The notes under the pieces are model-generated. The model was not told the DNA's origin, searched no databases, and saw only the letters and a list, made by a program, of their open reading frames with translations. Positions 27,334-34,327 of a DNA stretch of 64,000 bases are shown piece after piece (positions within the stretch are counted from its first letter, which is position 1; the number at the start of each line of letters is the position of its first letter). The DNA is from Mesoterricola silvestris (GTDB taxonomy: Bacteria; Acidobacteriota; Holophagae; Holophagales; Holophagaceae), in NCBI RefSeq assembly GCF_030295405.1, contig NZ_AP027080.1, positions 2,852,001 through 2,916,000 on the forward strand, read 5' to 3'. Made by a program: the position numbers and the translations under genes.

Positions 27334-28215
27334 CTAGTCAGCACAGCAACCTCCCCCACGCTTCACGGCCTCGGCCACGGCCCGCTGGGCCAGAACTTCG
27401 ATGAGATGCTCCCGGTAGTCCTTGGAGGCGCGCCAGGAGGTGCGGGCCCTGGCGGGCTTCACGGCGAGGCGCGCGATCTCCTGCACCACCTCCAGGGTGA
27501 CCTCCTTCCCCTTGGCGTAGGCCTCGGCCTCGAAGCACCGGATGGGCACCGGCGCCGCGACCCCCAGGCCGATGCGCAGGTCCGCGAAGCGGTCCTCCCG
27601 CACCTTGCAGACGGCGGCCACGCCCAGGGTGGCGATGTCCATGGCCTTGCGCATGGCGTACTTGATGTAGTGGCCGCCCATGCCCTCGTAGCCCTCCCGC
27701 GGGATGAGGATGGCGGTGAGGAGCTCGCCGGGGCGCAGGTTCACCTTGCCGGGGCCGGCGTAGAAGTCGCCCATGGGGATGATGCGCTCGTCCGTTGCGG
27801 TCTCCAGCTTCAGCAGCGCGTCCAGGGCGAACAGCGTCGAGGCGCTGTCGGCGGACACGGCGCCGTTGCAGATGTTGCCGCCGATGGTGGCCACGTTGCG
27901 CACCTGGGGGCCGCCCATGGACACCGCGGCCTCGCACAGGATGGGCACGCGCTCGCGGATCAGTCCGTTCCGGAAGATCGTCGTGAAGGGGGCCATGGCC
28001 CCCACCGAGATCGTCCCGTCGCCCAGCATGGCGATCTCCTCCAGGCCGTGGAGGTTCTTGAGGCTCAGGAGGCCCGAGCCCGCGAGGCTGCCGTGCTGGA
28101 GGCGGATGAGCACGTCGGTGCCGCCCGCGATGACCTTGAGGTCCGGGTTCGCGGCGAGGACCGCCTTGGCCTCCTCCAGCGTCCCGGGTTCGTGGAGTTC
28201 GCAGATGTCAAACAT
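27334..28215 (-). CDS. xdhB: Xanthine dehydrogenase-type FAD subunit
   Basis: FAD-binding subunit, 293 residues, the same length and motif order as E. coli XdhB. It has MFDICELHEPGTLEEAKAVL, then KVIAGGTDVLI for the flavin pyrophosphate, GPQVRNVATIGGNICNGAVS for the second flavin loop, and SWRASKDYREHLI near the end. Its ATG overlaps the xdhA stop by 8 bases and its stop is 19 bases before xdhC. The enzyme complex would be cytoplasmic. Purine hydroxylation is the likely activity by resemblance, though other heterocycles or aldehydes are possible. Confidence 0.92.
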   Translation of the reverse strand: MFDICELHEPGTLEEAKAVLAANPDLKVIAGGTDVLIRLQHGSLAGSGLLSLKNLHGLEEIAMLGDGTISVGAMAPFTTIFRNGLIRERVPILCEAAVSMGGPQVRNVATIGGNICNGAVSADSASTLFALDALLKLETATDERIIPMGDFYAGPGKVNLRPGELLTAILIPREGYEGMGGHYIKYAMRKAMDIATLGVAAVCKVREDRFADLRIGLGVAAPVPIRCFEAEAYAKGKEVTLEVVQEIARLAVKPARARTSWRASKDYREHLIEVLAQRAVAEAVKRGGGCCAD

Positions 28216-30523
28216 GTTCGGTGCTCCTCTGAGCCAGCAGCCCCGCTTCCCGGAACTTCTCGAAAACCACCTGCGGGTAGAGGGGGATCTTGTGGAAGGC
28301 CACGCCCGTGGCGTCGAGCACCGCGTTGCGCACGGCCGGGGCGGGGGAGATGACGGGGCACTCGCCCAGCGACTTGGAGCCGAAGGAGCCCGCGGCCTCG
28401 AAGGTCTCCACGAAGGCCGCGTTGATCTTCGGGGTGTCCAGGATGGTGGGCAGCTTGTAGTCCAGGAGGTTGTTGTTGAGGGTCTTGCCGGTCTGGGGAT
28501 CGAAGAGCATCTGCTCCAGGAGGGCGGCGCCCAGGGCCATGCTCACGCCGCCGTGCACCTGGCCCTCGGCGAGCCGGGGATTGATGATCGTGCCGGAGTC
28601 GTGGACGTTCCAGAGCTCGGCCACCTCCACCTTGCCGGTCTCCACGTCCACCTCCACTTCCACGAAGGTGGCGCCGTAGGACATGGCGTTGATGCGCACG
28701 TTGGCGGAGGTGTCGCTGGTGATGGGGGCGGCCAGGAGGCGGTCGTAGAAGGCGTCCATGGCCACGTCCTCCAGGGTGCACACCACGCGGCCCAGGGCCG
28801 TCTCGACGATCCTGCGGTCCCGGATGTCCATTTCGTCCTTGGCCAGGCCCGTGCGCCGCGCCGCCACCTCCAGCACCTTGTCCCGCACCTCCAGGGCCGC
28901 CTTGCGCACGGCGATGCCGGTGACGAAGGTCTGCCGGGAGGCGTAGGCGCCGGAATCGTAGGGGGTGATGTCCGTGTCCTGGCTGGTCACCACGTGCACC
29001 ATGTCCATGGGCAGCCCCAGCACTTCGGCGGTGATCTGGGCGAAGACGGTGTCGCTGCCCTGGCCGATCTCCGTGGCCCCCACCTGCAGGGCGACGGAGC
29101 CGTCCTGGTTCATGACGATGCGGGCGCCGGCCAGTTCCAGGGCCACGGGATGGGTGCCCGAGGCGTAGGCGAACAGCGCCATGCCCAGGCCGCGGCGCCT
29201 GGGCCCCGTCTGGCCGAGGTGGGCCTTGCGCTTCTCGTCCCACTTGATGAGTTCCATCCCCTTCTCGATGCACTGGGGGATGCCGAAGGAACGCACCACG
29301 TTCTTCGTGAGGGGGTCCTGGTGGCCCACCTTGATGAGGTTCTTCCGGCGCAGCTCCACCGGGTCCAGGTCCAGGCGGCGGGCGATGTCGTCCAGGTGGC
29401 TTTCCAGGGCGAAAAAGATCTGGGGCGTGCCGTAGCCGCGCATCGCGCCGGCCACGGGCAGGTTGGTGTAGACGGTCCTGGGCTCGTATTTCACGGCGCG
29501 GAAGTCATAGAGGGGCCGGAACTTCCCCCCCGCCGACATGGCGATGGAGTGGCCGTGGCTGGCGTAGGCGCCGGTGTTGCTCAGCACCTGCACGTGGATG
29601 CCCCGGAGCGTGCCGTCCGCGGCGACGGCGGTCTTCATATGGAGCTTCATGCCGTGGCGGGTGCGGGTGTCGATGAAGACCTCCTCGCGGGTCATGCAGT
29701 ACCGCACGGGGCGCCCGCCCGCGGCCAGGGTCATGGCGGCGGTCAGGGGTTCCACCACCACATCCTGCTTGTTGCCGAAGCCGCCGCCCACGAAGGGCTT
29801 GACGACCTTCACGCGGCCCCACTGCAGGCCCAGGGCCTGGGCCACGATGCGCCGCACGATGTGCGGGATCTGGGTGGAGGAGTTGACCACCACGCGGCCG
29901 TCGGTGTCCACGTAGGCGAAGGCGCTCATGCTCTCGATGTGGCAGTGCTGCACGACGCTGGTCTCGTAGTCGCCTTCGATGACGTGGTCGGCGCCCCGGA
30001 ATTCGGCCTCCACGTCGCCGAACTGCACGCCGAAGGAGCTCACGATGTTGCCCGGGCGGTTCTCGTGCAGGAGGGGCGCCCCCTCCTTCAGGGCGTCCTC
30101 GGCCGTGAGCACGTGGGGCAGCACCTCGTACTCGATCCCGATGAGGTGCAGCGCCTTCTCGGCGGTGAGCAGGTCCTCGGCCACCACGGCGGCCACGGCG
30201 TCGCCCACGAAGCGCGCCTTGTCCGTGAGGATCAGCCGGTCCTCCACGTCCCGGTGCCCCGGATCCAGCGACCAGGGATGCCCGGCCGTGGCGAACTTGA
30301 TCTTAGGGAGATCCTGCGCCGTGAACACCGCCACCACCCCCGGCAGGGCCCGGGCCCGGGACAGGTCCACCGACACGACCCGTGCATGGGCGTGGGGACT
30401 GCGCAGCACCTTGCCCACGAGCATGTCGCGCTCGAAGAAGTCATCGGTGTACTTGGCCTTCCCCGTCACCTTGGCCACGGCGTCTAGCCTCTGGACGCTC
30501 TTGCCCACGATGTTGTGGTCCAT
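28208..30523 (-). CDS. xdhA: Xanthine dehydrogenase-type molybdopterin subunit
   Basis: Large molybdenum-cofactor subunit, 771 residues. In order: an N-terminal a/b-hammerhead domain (DAVAKVTGKAKYTDDF), then cofactor-binding segments PFVGGGFGNKQD, AGAMRGYGTPQ and GATEIGQGSDTVF, LAEGQVHGGVSMALG, and the active-site Glu in GSFGSKSLGECP. Long stretches read like E. coli XdhA. The start ATG at 30523 has AGAGGTG just upstream. It opens the xdhABC operon, whose promoter region is bordered by an inverted pair of C repeats. No cofactor-insertion chaperone gene is adjacent. Confidence 0.94.
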   Translation of the reverse strand: MDHNIVGKSVQRLDAVAKVTGKAKYTDDFFERDMLVGKVLRSPHAHARVVSVDLSRARALPGVVAVFTAQDLPKIKFATAGHPWSLDPGHRDVEDRLILTDKARFVGDAVAAVVAEDLLTAEKALHLIGIEYEVLPHVLTAEDALKEGAPLLHENRPGNIVSSFGVQFGDVEAEFRGADHVIEGDYETSVVQHCHIESMSAFAYVDTDGRVVVNSSTQIPHIVRRIVAQALGLQWGRVKVVKPFVGGGFGNKQDVVVEPLTAAMTLAAGGRPVRYCMTREEVFIDTRTRHGMKLHMKTAVAADGTLRGIHVQVLSNTGAYASHGHSIAMSAGGKFRPLYDFRAVKYEPRTVYTNLPVAGAMRGYGTPQIFFALESHLDDIARRLDLDPVELRRKNLIKVGHQDPLTKNVVRSFGIPQCIEKGMELIKWDEKRKAHLGQTGPRRRGLGMALFAYASGTHPVALELAGARIVMNQDGSVALQVGATEIGQGSDTVFAQITAEVLGLPMDMVHVVTSQDTDITPYDSGAYASRQTFVTGIAVRKAALEVRDKVLEVAARRTGLAKDEMDIRDRRIVETALGRVVCTLEDVAMDAFYDRLLAAPITSDTSANVRINAMSYGATFVEVEVDVETGKVEVAELWNVHDSGTIINPRLAEGQVHGGVSMALGAALLEQMLFDPQTGKTLNNNLLDYKLPTILDTPKINAAFVETFEAAGSFGSKSLGECPVISPAPAVRNAVLDATGVAFHKIPLYPQVVFEKFREAGLLAQRSTEHV

Positions 30524-30684
30524 TCGACACCTCTTGGGAACCGGAAGTCCCCGGATTGCTGGAAGTACAAAGTATGGAAGCACCCGCACCCTGATTCAAT
30601 TTTTAATCAAGACAATCAATTTTTTTCACCGAGACTGAGACTGCTTCCGGACGGGGTGGGGGGGCACGTGTTCCGGACTTTCGC

Positions 30685-30774
30685 CAGGGATCCGCTGACG
30701 CAGACAAGCTGCGTCAGCGAAAGGCTCGCGACGGGGGGTTAGGGTGAAGTGTTGGCACGCTTCGGCTTCGATGG
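30685..30774 (+). repeat. Dispersed repeat family C, copy 2 (left arm of inverted pair)
   Basis: Starts CAGGGATCCGCTGACGCAG. It contains a perfect 11-bp hairpin CGCTGACGCAG / CTGCGTCAGCG (30693-30719), then GCTCGCGAC, a G-run, GAAGTGTTGGCACGCT and CGGCTTCGAT. It matches the reverse complement of 31066-31157 at roughly nine bases in ten, and copy 1 at 985-1105 more loosely. Confidence 0.85.
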
Positions 30775-31065
30775 ACCGTGAGGGGCTGGTGGGGGGCTGG
30801 GCTCCCCGGTAGGGCCTATTCCTCAGCGGCACGCTTCAAGTGGTCCGCCATGGAAGAGGTCCTGCGCCGACGTTGATCGGTCTTCACCTCTCGCAAGCTC
30901 CTGGAAACTCCACGCTCCATTTGCCTGCAATACCTGATTCCATGTGGCTCTCGCATAAGGTGATCAGCGTCGGCGCAAACCGGCCACCCTCCCGGAAGAC
31001 TTGAAGCGGATCGCTGAAGCATAGGCCCATCCGGAAGGCCCCGTCCCCCGCACGCGCCCCATCGT

Positions 31066-31157
31066 CCAATCGAAGCCGGAGCGTGCCAACACTTCCGCCT
31101 AACCCCCTGTCGCGAGCTTTTCTCTGACGCAGCTTGCCTGCGTCAGCGGATCCCTGA
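31066..31157 (-). repeat. Dispersed repeat family C, copy 3 (right arm of inverted pair)
   Basis: Reverse complement of copy 2, with its own 9-bp hairpin CTGACGCAG / CTGCGTCAG (31125-31147). With copy 2 it frames 30775-31065. The pair could form a cruciform or a 90-base RNA stem, or be the ends of a small non-autonomous element. No clear target-site duplication was seen at the outer edges. Confidence 0.85.
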
Positions 31158-31186
31158 CGCGGGTTTGGGACATGGGCCATGGAGGG

Positions 31187-34100
31187 TCACCCTTCGGTTG
31201 TGGACGGCAGTTCCAGGCAGAACGCGCATCCGACATCGGACGGTCGTTCCACCCAGACCCGGCCGTGGTTGGCGTCGACCAGGTGCTTGACGATGCTCAG
31301 GCCGAGGCCCGACGAGCTCTCCCCTCCGGTGGGGCGGGCGGAGAGTTTCACGAAGCGGCGGAAGAGATTGGCTTTTTCGGATTCCTGGATGCCGGGGCCC
31401 TGGTCGATGACCTCGATGCGGGTCGCGGCGGGTCCGGGGATCACCCGGATGCGCAGCACGGCCCCGGAGGGGGAGAACTTGGAGGCGTTGGAAAGGAGGT
31501 TGTCCAGGATCTGGCGCAGGTGGTTGGGGTCGGCCAGGACCCGGCCCTCGCCCTCCACCACCAGCACCTGGCCCTTGGCGTCCAGGCGCAGCTTGTAGAG
31601 GCTGGCCAGGGGGTCCAGGATCTCCTGGATGGCCACGGCCCTTGCGCGGGGGCTCGACATGCCGCTCTCGATGGCGTTGACGTCCAGGAACTCGTCGATG
31701 AGCGCCGTCATGTGGTGGGCGGAGGTGGCGATCTTGCGGACCCAGGGCCCGATTTCCGGAGGGCAGTCCTCCAGGTCCCCGGTGACGAGCCCGTCGGAGA
31801 CCAGGATGATGGTGTTGAGGGGGTTGCGCAGGTCGTGGGCGGCGATGCCCATGAACTGGGTCTTCTCCAGGTTCAGCAGGACCAGCTCCCGGTTCAGCTT
31901 CTCCTGTTCCTCCCGGCGCTGCTCGATCTCGCGGGTGGCGCTCCCGATGCGCTCCATGAGCTCCCGGTTGCGATCGGCCAGGACCCGGGTGCGCAGCCGG
32001 AGCAGGGCCAGCACGCCGCCGCCCAGGAGCACCGCGTAGATGCCCCAGGCCAGGGGGCTGAACCAGGGCGCCGGCAGGACCCGGAACGGGAAGGCCAGGG
32101 GACCCGTCTGGTTTCCCGCGTAGTCCCGGCCCCAGACCAGCATGGTGTACCGGCCCGCGGGCAGGCTGGGGAACTGGGCGTAGGAGAGCCCGGACCAGTC
32201 CCCCGGCGCGTCCTGGAGGCCCACCAGCTGGGTGCGGTAGACCGTATCCTGCTCCCGGTGCCCCGTGAGGAGCCGGAATTCGAAACGGACCCCCTGGTCC
32301 CGGTGGGAGAGGCGCTCGCCCTGCGCCAGGGAACGGCCCCGCACCACCGCGGATTCCCACACCAGGGGCTTGGGGACGCTGTCCTGGGTGGAGGTGCCCG
32401 GTTCGAGCCAGGCCGGGCCGTCCTCGGTTCCCACCCAGATGCGCCCGCGGCTGTCCCGGAAGAGGGACCCCTTGATGCACTCCATCCCCGGCAGGCCGTC
32501 CTCGGTGCTGAAGTTGTCCCAGGTCCAGCCCCGCCCGGGGTCCACCCGCGCCACGCCCCGGGGGCTCGAGACATAGATCCTGCCGGCGCCGTCCTGCACC
32601 AGGTCGTAGACGAGGTCCTGGCGCAGGGCCGGGGTGTTGCGGGTGGTGAAGGTGTGGTGGCCGCCGGAGCCGCCCGGGTTCTCGAAGTGGATGACGCCCG
32701 AGCCGAAGGTGCCCACCACCAGGTCCGACCGCAGCTGGAGCAGGGCGTGGACCCCCACCGGGGGGAAATTGGCCAGGACGGGAGGCGAGACCCAGGCCTC
32801 CCCCTCCAGGCAGGCCAGGCCCTTGTCGGTGCCCACCCAGAGCCTCGAACCGTCCACGTCCAGGCTGCGCACCGAGGGCTTGGGATCGCCGGGGGGAGGC
32901 GGCATGGCCTGGAAGGCCGCACCGTCCCACCGCACCAGGCCCCGGCTGGTCCCGATCCACAGCACCCGCCCGCCGCGGGCGTCCCGGGTTCCCGCGAGCA
33001 CCCTCACGGTGCCCTGGGCAAAGCCCTCCTTCTCGGACCAGAACCGGAACCGGCCCTGGGAGAAGCGCCCGAGGCTGTTGCCCATGCCGAAATAGAGGTC
33101 CTGCTCCCCCGGGAAGGCGTAGAGGCTGCGCATGGTCTCGCTCACGGGACCCGCGTTGGGCTTGTGGATGGTGTAGACGCCCTGCTCCAGGCTGGCCAGG
33201 CACGTGTTGGCCATCCACAGCACCGGCTGGCCCGTGGCGGGGTTGCGGGTCTCGGCGAAGGCCTGCACCCTCGGGTCCGCGTGGGGCCAGGGCACGGTGA
33301 CGCGCCGCCACCCGCCGGAATGGATGCGGAAGATGCCCTTGCCGTCGGAGCCCGCCCAGAGGACGGAGCCGTCCGGCCCGCCCGGGGTGAAGGCCAGGCA
33401 GCGGATGAAGTCGGACTGGAGGCCGCTGTGGGTGCTCCGCACCAGCCACTGGTCGCCCGAGATCTGGGCCATGCCCCCGCCGGAGGTGCCCACCCACATG
33501 GAGCCGTCGCCCCCGCCCAGGAGGGCGCGGACGCTGGTGTTGCCCATGCGCTCCTTCATGGGGAGGGCCTCGAGCCGGCCCTTGCGCCAGCGGTAGAGCC
33601 CGCCCTTCTCCGTGCCGATCCAGAGGCTGCGCGATCCGTCGGGTTCGGTGGACTCGGCCAGGGCCCGCACCAGGGGGTCGGCCAGGGCCCCGTTGCCTTC
33701 GAAGGGGCGCCAGCGGCCCTGCTCCAGGATCCAGACCCCCCGGGCGGACCCGACCCACAGGGCCCCTTCCCGTTCCAGCAGGCAGAAGGTCCGCTCTTCG
33801 GAAAGGTCCCCCCCCAGGCGCTGCCACGCGCCGTCCTGGTAGGCCACGACCCCCCGGCCGTGGGTCGCGCCGTAGAGGATGCGCCGCCCGGACCGGTCCA
33901 GGCGGGAGCTTTCGATGAGCTGGTTGACGTTGTTGATGGGCAGGCCGGCCTGCAGGTCGTGGACCTTCCAGGCGCCCTGGCGGTACTCCAGGTAACCCTG
34001 GAACCGGGTTCCTATCCACATGGCCCCGTCGGAGGTGCAGGTCATGGAATTGGCGTTCACCAGGAGGGCGTACCGGCTGGGGGGCCCCTCCACGGCCTTC

Positions 34101-34327
34101 CAGGCCTGGCCGTCGAACCGGGCAACCCCGGCCAGGGTGCCCGCCCAGAGCCGCCCCTGGTGATCCGCGGCCAGGGCGTAGATGGCCATCTGCGGCACCC
34201 CGTCGCTGGCGTTGAACACCCGCACGGGTCCGGCCCCCGGCGGCGCCCCCGCGAAGGCCCAGGCCGCCAGGCACAGCGCCAGCGCCAGGCGCAAGGCGGC
34301 TGCTGCGTGGAAACGTGATCCGGCCAT
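31187..34327 (-). CDS. Two-component propeller sensor histidine kinase
   Basis: Large envelope sensor kinase, 1046 residues. The signal peptide ends near AGAPPG. About 650 residues of repeated two-component-propeller blades follow (recurring GxLWxGT patterns such as GRLWAGTLAGVARF and GAMWIGTRFQGY), then a Y_Y_Y-like beta domain ending LPAGRYTMLVWGRDYAGN. One membrane helix lies near 757-777, then a coiled coil, a HisKA domain with phospho-acceptor His831 (AHDLRNPLN), and an ATPase domain with DQGPGIQ and SSGLGLSIVK. There is no receiver or AraC output, unlike Bacteroidetes hybrid sensors. No partner regulator is adjacent. The periplasmic propeller implies sensing of an extracellular polymer or surface cue. 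Confidence 0.92.
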   Translation of the reverse strand: MAGSRFHAAAALRLALALCLAAWAFAGAPPGAGPVRVFNASDGVPQMAIYALAADHQGRLWAGTLAGVARFDGQAWKAVEGPPSRYALLVNANSMTCTSDGAMWIGTRFQGYLEYRQGAWKVHDLQAGLPINNVNQLIESSRLDRSGRRILYGATHGRGVVAYQDGAWQRLGGDLSEERTFCLLEREGALWVGSARGVWILEQGRWRPFEGNGALADPLVRALAESTEPDGSRSLWIGTEKGGLYRWRKGRLEALPMKERMGNTSVRALLGGGDGSMWVGTSGGGMAQISGDQWLVRSTHSGLQSDFIRCLAFTPGGPDGSVLWAGSDGKGIFRIHSGGWRRVTVPWPHADPRVQAFAETRNPATGQPVLWMANTCLASLEQGVYTIHKPNAGPVSETMRSLYAFPGEQDLYFGMGNSLGRFSQGRFRFWSEKEGFAQGTVRVLAGTRDARGGRVLWIGTSRGLVRWDGAAFQAMPPPPGDPKPSVRSLDVDGSRLWVGTDKGLACLEGEAWVSPPVLANFPPVGVHALLQLRSDLVVGTFGSGVIHFENPGGSGGHHTFTTRNTPALRQDLVYDLVQDGAGRIYVSSPRGVARVDPGRGWTWDNFSTEDGLPGMECIKGSLFRDSRGRIWVGTEDGPAWLEPGTSTQDSVPKPLVWESAVVRGRSLAQGERLSHRDQGVRFEFRLLTGHREQDTVYRTQLVGLQDAPGDWSGLSYAQFPSLPAGRYTMLVWGRDYAGNQTGPLAFPFRVLPAPWFSPLAWGIYAVLLGGGVLALLRLRTRVLADRNRELMERIGSATREIEQRREEQEKLNRELVLLNLEKTQFMGIAAHDLRNPLNTIILVSDGLVTGDLEDCPPEIGPWVRKIATSAHHMTALIDEFLDVNAIESGMSSPRARAVAIQEILDPLASLYKLRLDAKGQVLVVEGEGRVLADPNHLRQILDNLLSNASKFSPSGAVLRIRVIPGPAATRIEVIDQGPGIQESEKANLFRRFVKLSARPTGGESSSGLGLSIVKHLVDANHGRVWVERPSDVGCAFCLELPSTTEG

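Follow-up and report, generated by a model that had tools for sequence, protein, structure and literature searches.

The inverted arms upstream of an xdhA-like gene of Mesoterricola silvestris probably belong to one copy of a MITE family, with elements of about 300-520 bases and unusually long, structured arms, that was moved by an IS701-like transposase. Members of the family have inverted ends, carry no transposase gene of their own and are dispersed in copies, some of whose sites are empty in relatives; CTAG or TTAG lies at the boundaries of young copies, as it does at those of genuine IS701-type copies.

A sequence-only reading of the window, the 64,000-nucleotide stretch of contig NZ_AP027080.1 analysed here, had reported two 90-base inverted arms, matching at roughly nine in ten bases and about 290 bases apart, and had placed them correctly: in inverted register 30685-30774 matches 31067-31156 at 82 of 90 bases, across a spacing of 292 bases. 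The feature is nevertheless larger than that. Similarity of the arms extends inward (about 79% over 198 bases), a single inverted match covers 30682-31159, and an outer stem begins some 20 bases beyond the arms as first noted, so that the element as a whole forms a palindrome some 510 bases long, with approximate ends at 30663 and 31180. A scan of the entire window, with four loop sizes and 507,200 arm placements, gave a mean match of 26/90 and nothing comparable elsewhere; the only three placements to reach 60/90 all lie inside the element. Folded as RNA, 30670-31170 yields -351.9 kcal/mol, whereas 100 shuffled sequences average -207.7 (z -24.7).

From the outside inward, the element comprises an outer stem, P1 (30667-30692 with 31149-31174; 88.5% of cells paired across 13 elements); a small hairpin in each arm, as the reading had described, P2, with 11 bp and a 5-nt loop on the left (30693-30719) and its counterpart on the right at 31122-31148; a long-range stem, P3 (30720-30747 with 31094-31121); a second, 5-bp hairpin, H2, of the form AGTGT-TGGC-ACRCT (30748-30761, with its counterpart at 31080-31093); inner arms (30762-30878 and, as its inverted match, 30962-31079); and a central loop of 83 nt (30879-30961). 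Our own simple gene caller, trained on the window, called no gene between 30663 and 31180. To the right it places a sensor-kinase gene, named by eye, on the minus strand (31187-34294), whose stop at 31187 adjoins the element, and to the left, also on the minus strand, the xdhA-like molybdoenzyme gene, so labelled in the reading (28208-30523), which starts 140 nt from the element. The third arm said to occur at 1 kb is real: a single related arm, running from P1 and P2 through the inner arm, occupies 986-1187 on the plus strand between two convergent genes, whose ends lie at 980 and 1205, and its 1011-1187 portion is 63-66% identical to the arms of the window element.

The family is present at about 78 loci of the 5.0-Mb genome. 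This count is a lower bound, as the first-look search stages scored only part of the candidates; it sums 37 first-tier loci, including two in the window, and 41 second-tier loci (L106-L145), leaving out L066 and L068 as short hits. BLAST of the genome returned 111 matches grouping at about 39 places; a covariance model built on 46 arms (A1) returned 140 at E <=1, many of them the same palindromes matched again on the other strand. The P2 hairpin pattern matched 50 times, against none in a reversed control, and the outer-stem pattern 98 times, again against none, revealing 17 additional ends; at those 17 loci, with genes annotated only in outline, no transposase-bearing copy was recognised. Another giant palindrome, at 2995-3507 of L244, has the family outer stem and is 78% self-complementary over 513 nt; the first arm search had missed it. 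That arms spread individually as a rule is not what the single-arm loci indicate: at L045, L046, L054 and L059 the partner is degenerate or truncated, which suggests that two-armed elements have decayed.

Two main subfamilies share an outer end, CGTGTCCCGGAC-N-TTCGCCCCGG, and differ in the small hairpin, which is CTGACGCAG-NCAAG-CTGCGTCAG in A and GTTGCTGCGGGC-CA-GCCCGCAGCAAC in B. Median pairwise identity is 72% among the core A elements (the window copy and L031-L043) and 91% among the thirteen B elements; divergence between the two arms of one element is greater in B than in A. Mini forms (L139, L143 and L145; L060) are reduced to the outer stem and one small hairpin. At L042, tandem repeats of a roughly 30-base unit (GAATCAGTCCCGAACAGGGCCGGGACACGGGC) follow the right end of the element, just right of 3428.

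Beyond this genome the family is narrowly distributed. Among 60 related genomes, searched with filters stricter than those used for the genome itself, the arm model found matches in three of five congeners (G002, G004, G005), in none of 31 other members of the taxonomic family and none of 16 of the class, and in one of seven of the same phylum, as a single weak match (E 0.0017). Plain DNA search added short weak matches (E ~5e-4) in G001 and G014, and nothing in the phage and plasmid collections matched at E 0.01. Nor did Rfam hold any match to the family; its only hit was a group II intron (RF00029, 52.8 bits) elsewhere in L145, at 654-729, near the mini element. No description of such a family was found in the literature, as represented mostly by the openings of abstracts.

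With many copies in one genome, the arms of each element could be compared with each other and with those of other elements. In the 13 core elements, arms match their own partners clearly better than re-paired ones only in the 29 columns that follow the small hairpin, at an identity of 0.779 versus 0.633, with 0 of 5000 re-pairings as good; over the inner 120 columns there is no excess (0.657 versus 0.675). L047, L060, L061 and the 1-kb arm were left out of this comparison. An excess in P1 is significant in the 18 two-armed elements, not in the 13 core ones, and may therefore reflect subfamilies. Counts of base-pair changes agree: 19 of the 28 P3 pairs have changed on both sides, as have 2 of 5 in the left H2, and for P1 and P3 together (alignment A2) 24 pairs have done so versus a shuffled mean of 17.6, in 58 cells versus 27.6 (0 of 500 shuffles), whereas 49 control pairs in the inner arms show 12 double changes against 13.4 when shuffled. 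Across 46 arms P2 shows local covariation (CG 33 times, UA 9 and GC 4 in columns 26/48), from arm seeds allowed at most two mismatches, which biases conservation upward; in the A2 core set alone the local P2 and H2 hairpins vary too little for covariation. Long-range pairing of P2 with P2' was rejected, there being 0 pairs changed on both sides.

The part of the fold kept by compensatory change thus appears, from these alignments, to be the 28-bp P3 stem and not the inner arms, which are conserved as inverted sequence without co-evolution of pairing. Of the giant RNA hairpin proposed in the reading, then, P3 is upheld and the outer stem less surely, but the inner arms are not. Correction of a quasi-palindrome by template switching, a known route to homogenisation of long quasi-palindromes, could make the arms alike and leave a fold without function; this we consider quite improbable, since only the outer arm shows the excess (in P3, and in P1 when the full set is taken) and the inner arms show none; correction would be expected near the centre first. 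All copies in one genome would face the same transposase, and the matched P3 changes are specific to each element; they would therefore reflect pairing of bases in RNA or in single-stranded DNA rather than recognition of each end by a protein. In the window element, neither a T-tract terminator (the stem is not followed by a T run) nor a sigma-70 promoter was found.

Evidence that the elements arrived by transposition comes from their boundaries and from sites in relatives. B copies read CTAG followed directly by GAGCCYGGCTACGTAATCG at one or both ends. In the 13 young B copies, with 26 ends, CTAG, TTAG or CTAA stands at 17 of the 26 boundaries by hand count, two of these being displaced by a small indel; a YTAR-type tetramer is present at both ends of L112, L113, L130 and L138, and at L138 the two ends carry a matched, non-palindromic TTAG pair. 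At the window copy, which is old, a target duplication is not recognisable. Nine loci were compared with congeners, L119 and L130 having flanks that were non-adjacent or found on one side only, and at four of them at least one congener has an empty site: L108 in G001, G002, G004 and G005; L035 in G005, with CTAG at the junction; L118 in G004 and G005; and L124 in G001, G004 and G005, with CTAG at the junction in the latter two. The junction at L118 in G005 reads TAGCTA and not CTAG, which counts against a MITE of IS701 type. The empty L108 site of G004 holds a small ordinary hairpin where M. silvestris holds the element; the hairpin is missing from the filled site, implying either that insertion was not a simple addition or that a deletion followed. 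Other sites are differently filled: at L120, G005 has a mini form and G004 a fragment of one end, and the L031 site carries an element of another subfamily in G005 and other sequence in G004. L125 has a 66-base gap in G005. At the L031 site of G004 (L224, G004:C1:1483991-1485760) stands an inverted repeat of another kind, about 150 bases long (GGCGAACCTCGGCCCCTCGG...).

The IS701 family targets YTAG. Its transposase domain, DDE_5 (PF13546), is found in proteins of G001, G003 and G004, and the complete IS701-type copies of G001 and G004 lie between CTAG tetramers, with ends CACTACTGTGTCA. No DDE_5 protein was found in the M. silvestris genome, so that no mobiliser is in place there now. One link is an element of G004, L147, which carries a broken DDE_5 gene between its arms (E 3.7e-25) and CTAG outside both ends; its own end (TTCGACTG...GGTGGGCCGGGTCC) resembles, with a gap, that of an intact G004 IS copy, L166 (TTTGACTGGGTGGGCCGGCTCC). 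We infer that this remnant marks a parent of the family rather than a later insertion, which it could also be; only one relative has such a remnant. The GAGCCYGG end of the main family does not match the common IS701-type end TACTACTGTGTCA, and when 25 fetched transposase relatives, with L166 and L160, were screened for flanking inverted repeats, the family's arms were found in none; several had ordinary short IS701-type ends and some no significant repeat. Two intact IS701-type copies of G004, L164 and L159, lie at a CTAG adjoining a family terminus (GAGCCTGTCTACGTAAT), two elements at one target site. The likeness to the IS701 family thus consists in the same four-base target in the same genus and the remnant within L147; the difference is that the main family has another end sequence and no transposase inside. 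The small non-autonomous mobile element proposed in the reading is supported by dispersed copies, CTAG boundaries, congener sites empty or differently filled and the transposase remnant in a relative.

The placement of the copies is strongly biased. In our own gene calls, convergent genes flank 45 of 75 loci, tandem genes 24 and divergent genes 4, with 2 unassigned (L065, a duplicate of the window, the short hits L066 and L068 and the two window copies are omitted); of the other adjacent gene pairs at the same loci 20/262 are convergent (odds ratio 18, p 1e-20). Elements begin directly behind stop codons, with a preference for TAG: 70 of 103 stops within 60 bases of element ends are TAG, versus 83 of 240 in other genes (p 2e-8), the ends being taken from a loose pattern with 262 candidates, of which many chance matches inside genes were not counted. 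Distances from the stop to the TCCC of the element end peak at 25 and at 12-13 bases. A special relation to the xdhA promoter, as the reading suggested, is not supported, given that the element starts just past the stop of the kinase gene and that convergent pairs flank most copies; its link to xdhA is incidental and positional only.

Such placement, right behind stops on both sides, would also suit bidirectional terminators or 3'-UTR elements owned by the host and spread by recombination, whose symmetry would offer the same signal to both convergent genes; maintenance of P3 pairing and the mini forms L139, L143 and L145, which retain only P1-P2-P1', fit as well. Host ownership is unlikely, however, in view of the CTAG boundaries, the empty sites, the 91% identity of a young subfamily, the restriction to part of one genus and the transposase remnant between the arms in a relative. 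REP/BIME repeats, which RAYT mobilises, are likewise palindromes favouring gene 3' ends, and if such a Y1 transposase recognised the small hairpins, this would account for their conservation, with compensated stems, at each end. That origin is very improbable: the genome has no PF01797 protein, in a search whose control matched in 5 of 14 genomes, and CTAG boundaries fit a DDE transposase better.

Among known systems, Correia/NEMIS, ERIC, RUP and YPAL are, in excerpts of PMC2229807, MITEs of about 100-200 bp, mostly A+T-rich and with TA ends; the present elements resemble them in being short, non-autonomous, intergenic stem-loops from end to end, probably with a target duplication. Unlike them, ours are about 500 bp long and GC-rich, with CTAG ends, a four-way-junction fold and placement at stop codons. 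Cleavage by RNase III has been proposed for NEMIS RNA (same excerpts), and units of REP/BIME measure 20-40 bp (part of PMC3733652). Very long inverted arms and a short loop also recall eukaryotic foldback elements.

The mover would be a DDE transposase of IS701 type with a YTAG target, and in a GC-rich genome that target would survive mostly as the stop codon TAG. Insertions cutting an operon would be lost and those not cutting one persist, so that copies would accumulate between convergent genes. In single-stranded RNA or DNA the P1, P2 and P3 fold would form a four-way junction. It may supply both neighbouring transcripts with their 3' end, in place of an ordinary small terminator hairpin like that at one empty site; a role in ending transcripts would account for retention of the fold amid drift of the remainder. 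A portable bidirectional transcript end is the natural guess from sequence. We advance only tentatively the full proposal, namely that a transposon derivative with stop codons as its target takes the place of the host terminator between facing genes and then persists under selection for a long-range RNA fold, compensated locus by locus.

MITEs are usually regarded as decaying debris. Here, in many copies within one genome, a long-range stem is compensated while the adjacent inner arms are not, and the kept stem suggests that at their present sites the copies serve a use or are at least under constraint. A target motif with a stop codon inside it would explain their placement, and the family offers a direct, testable case of transposons supplying the 3' ends of bacterial transcripts.
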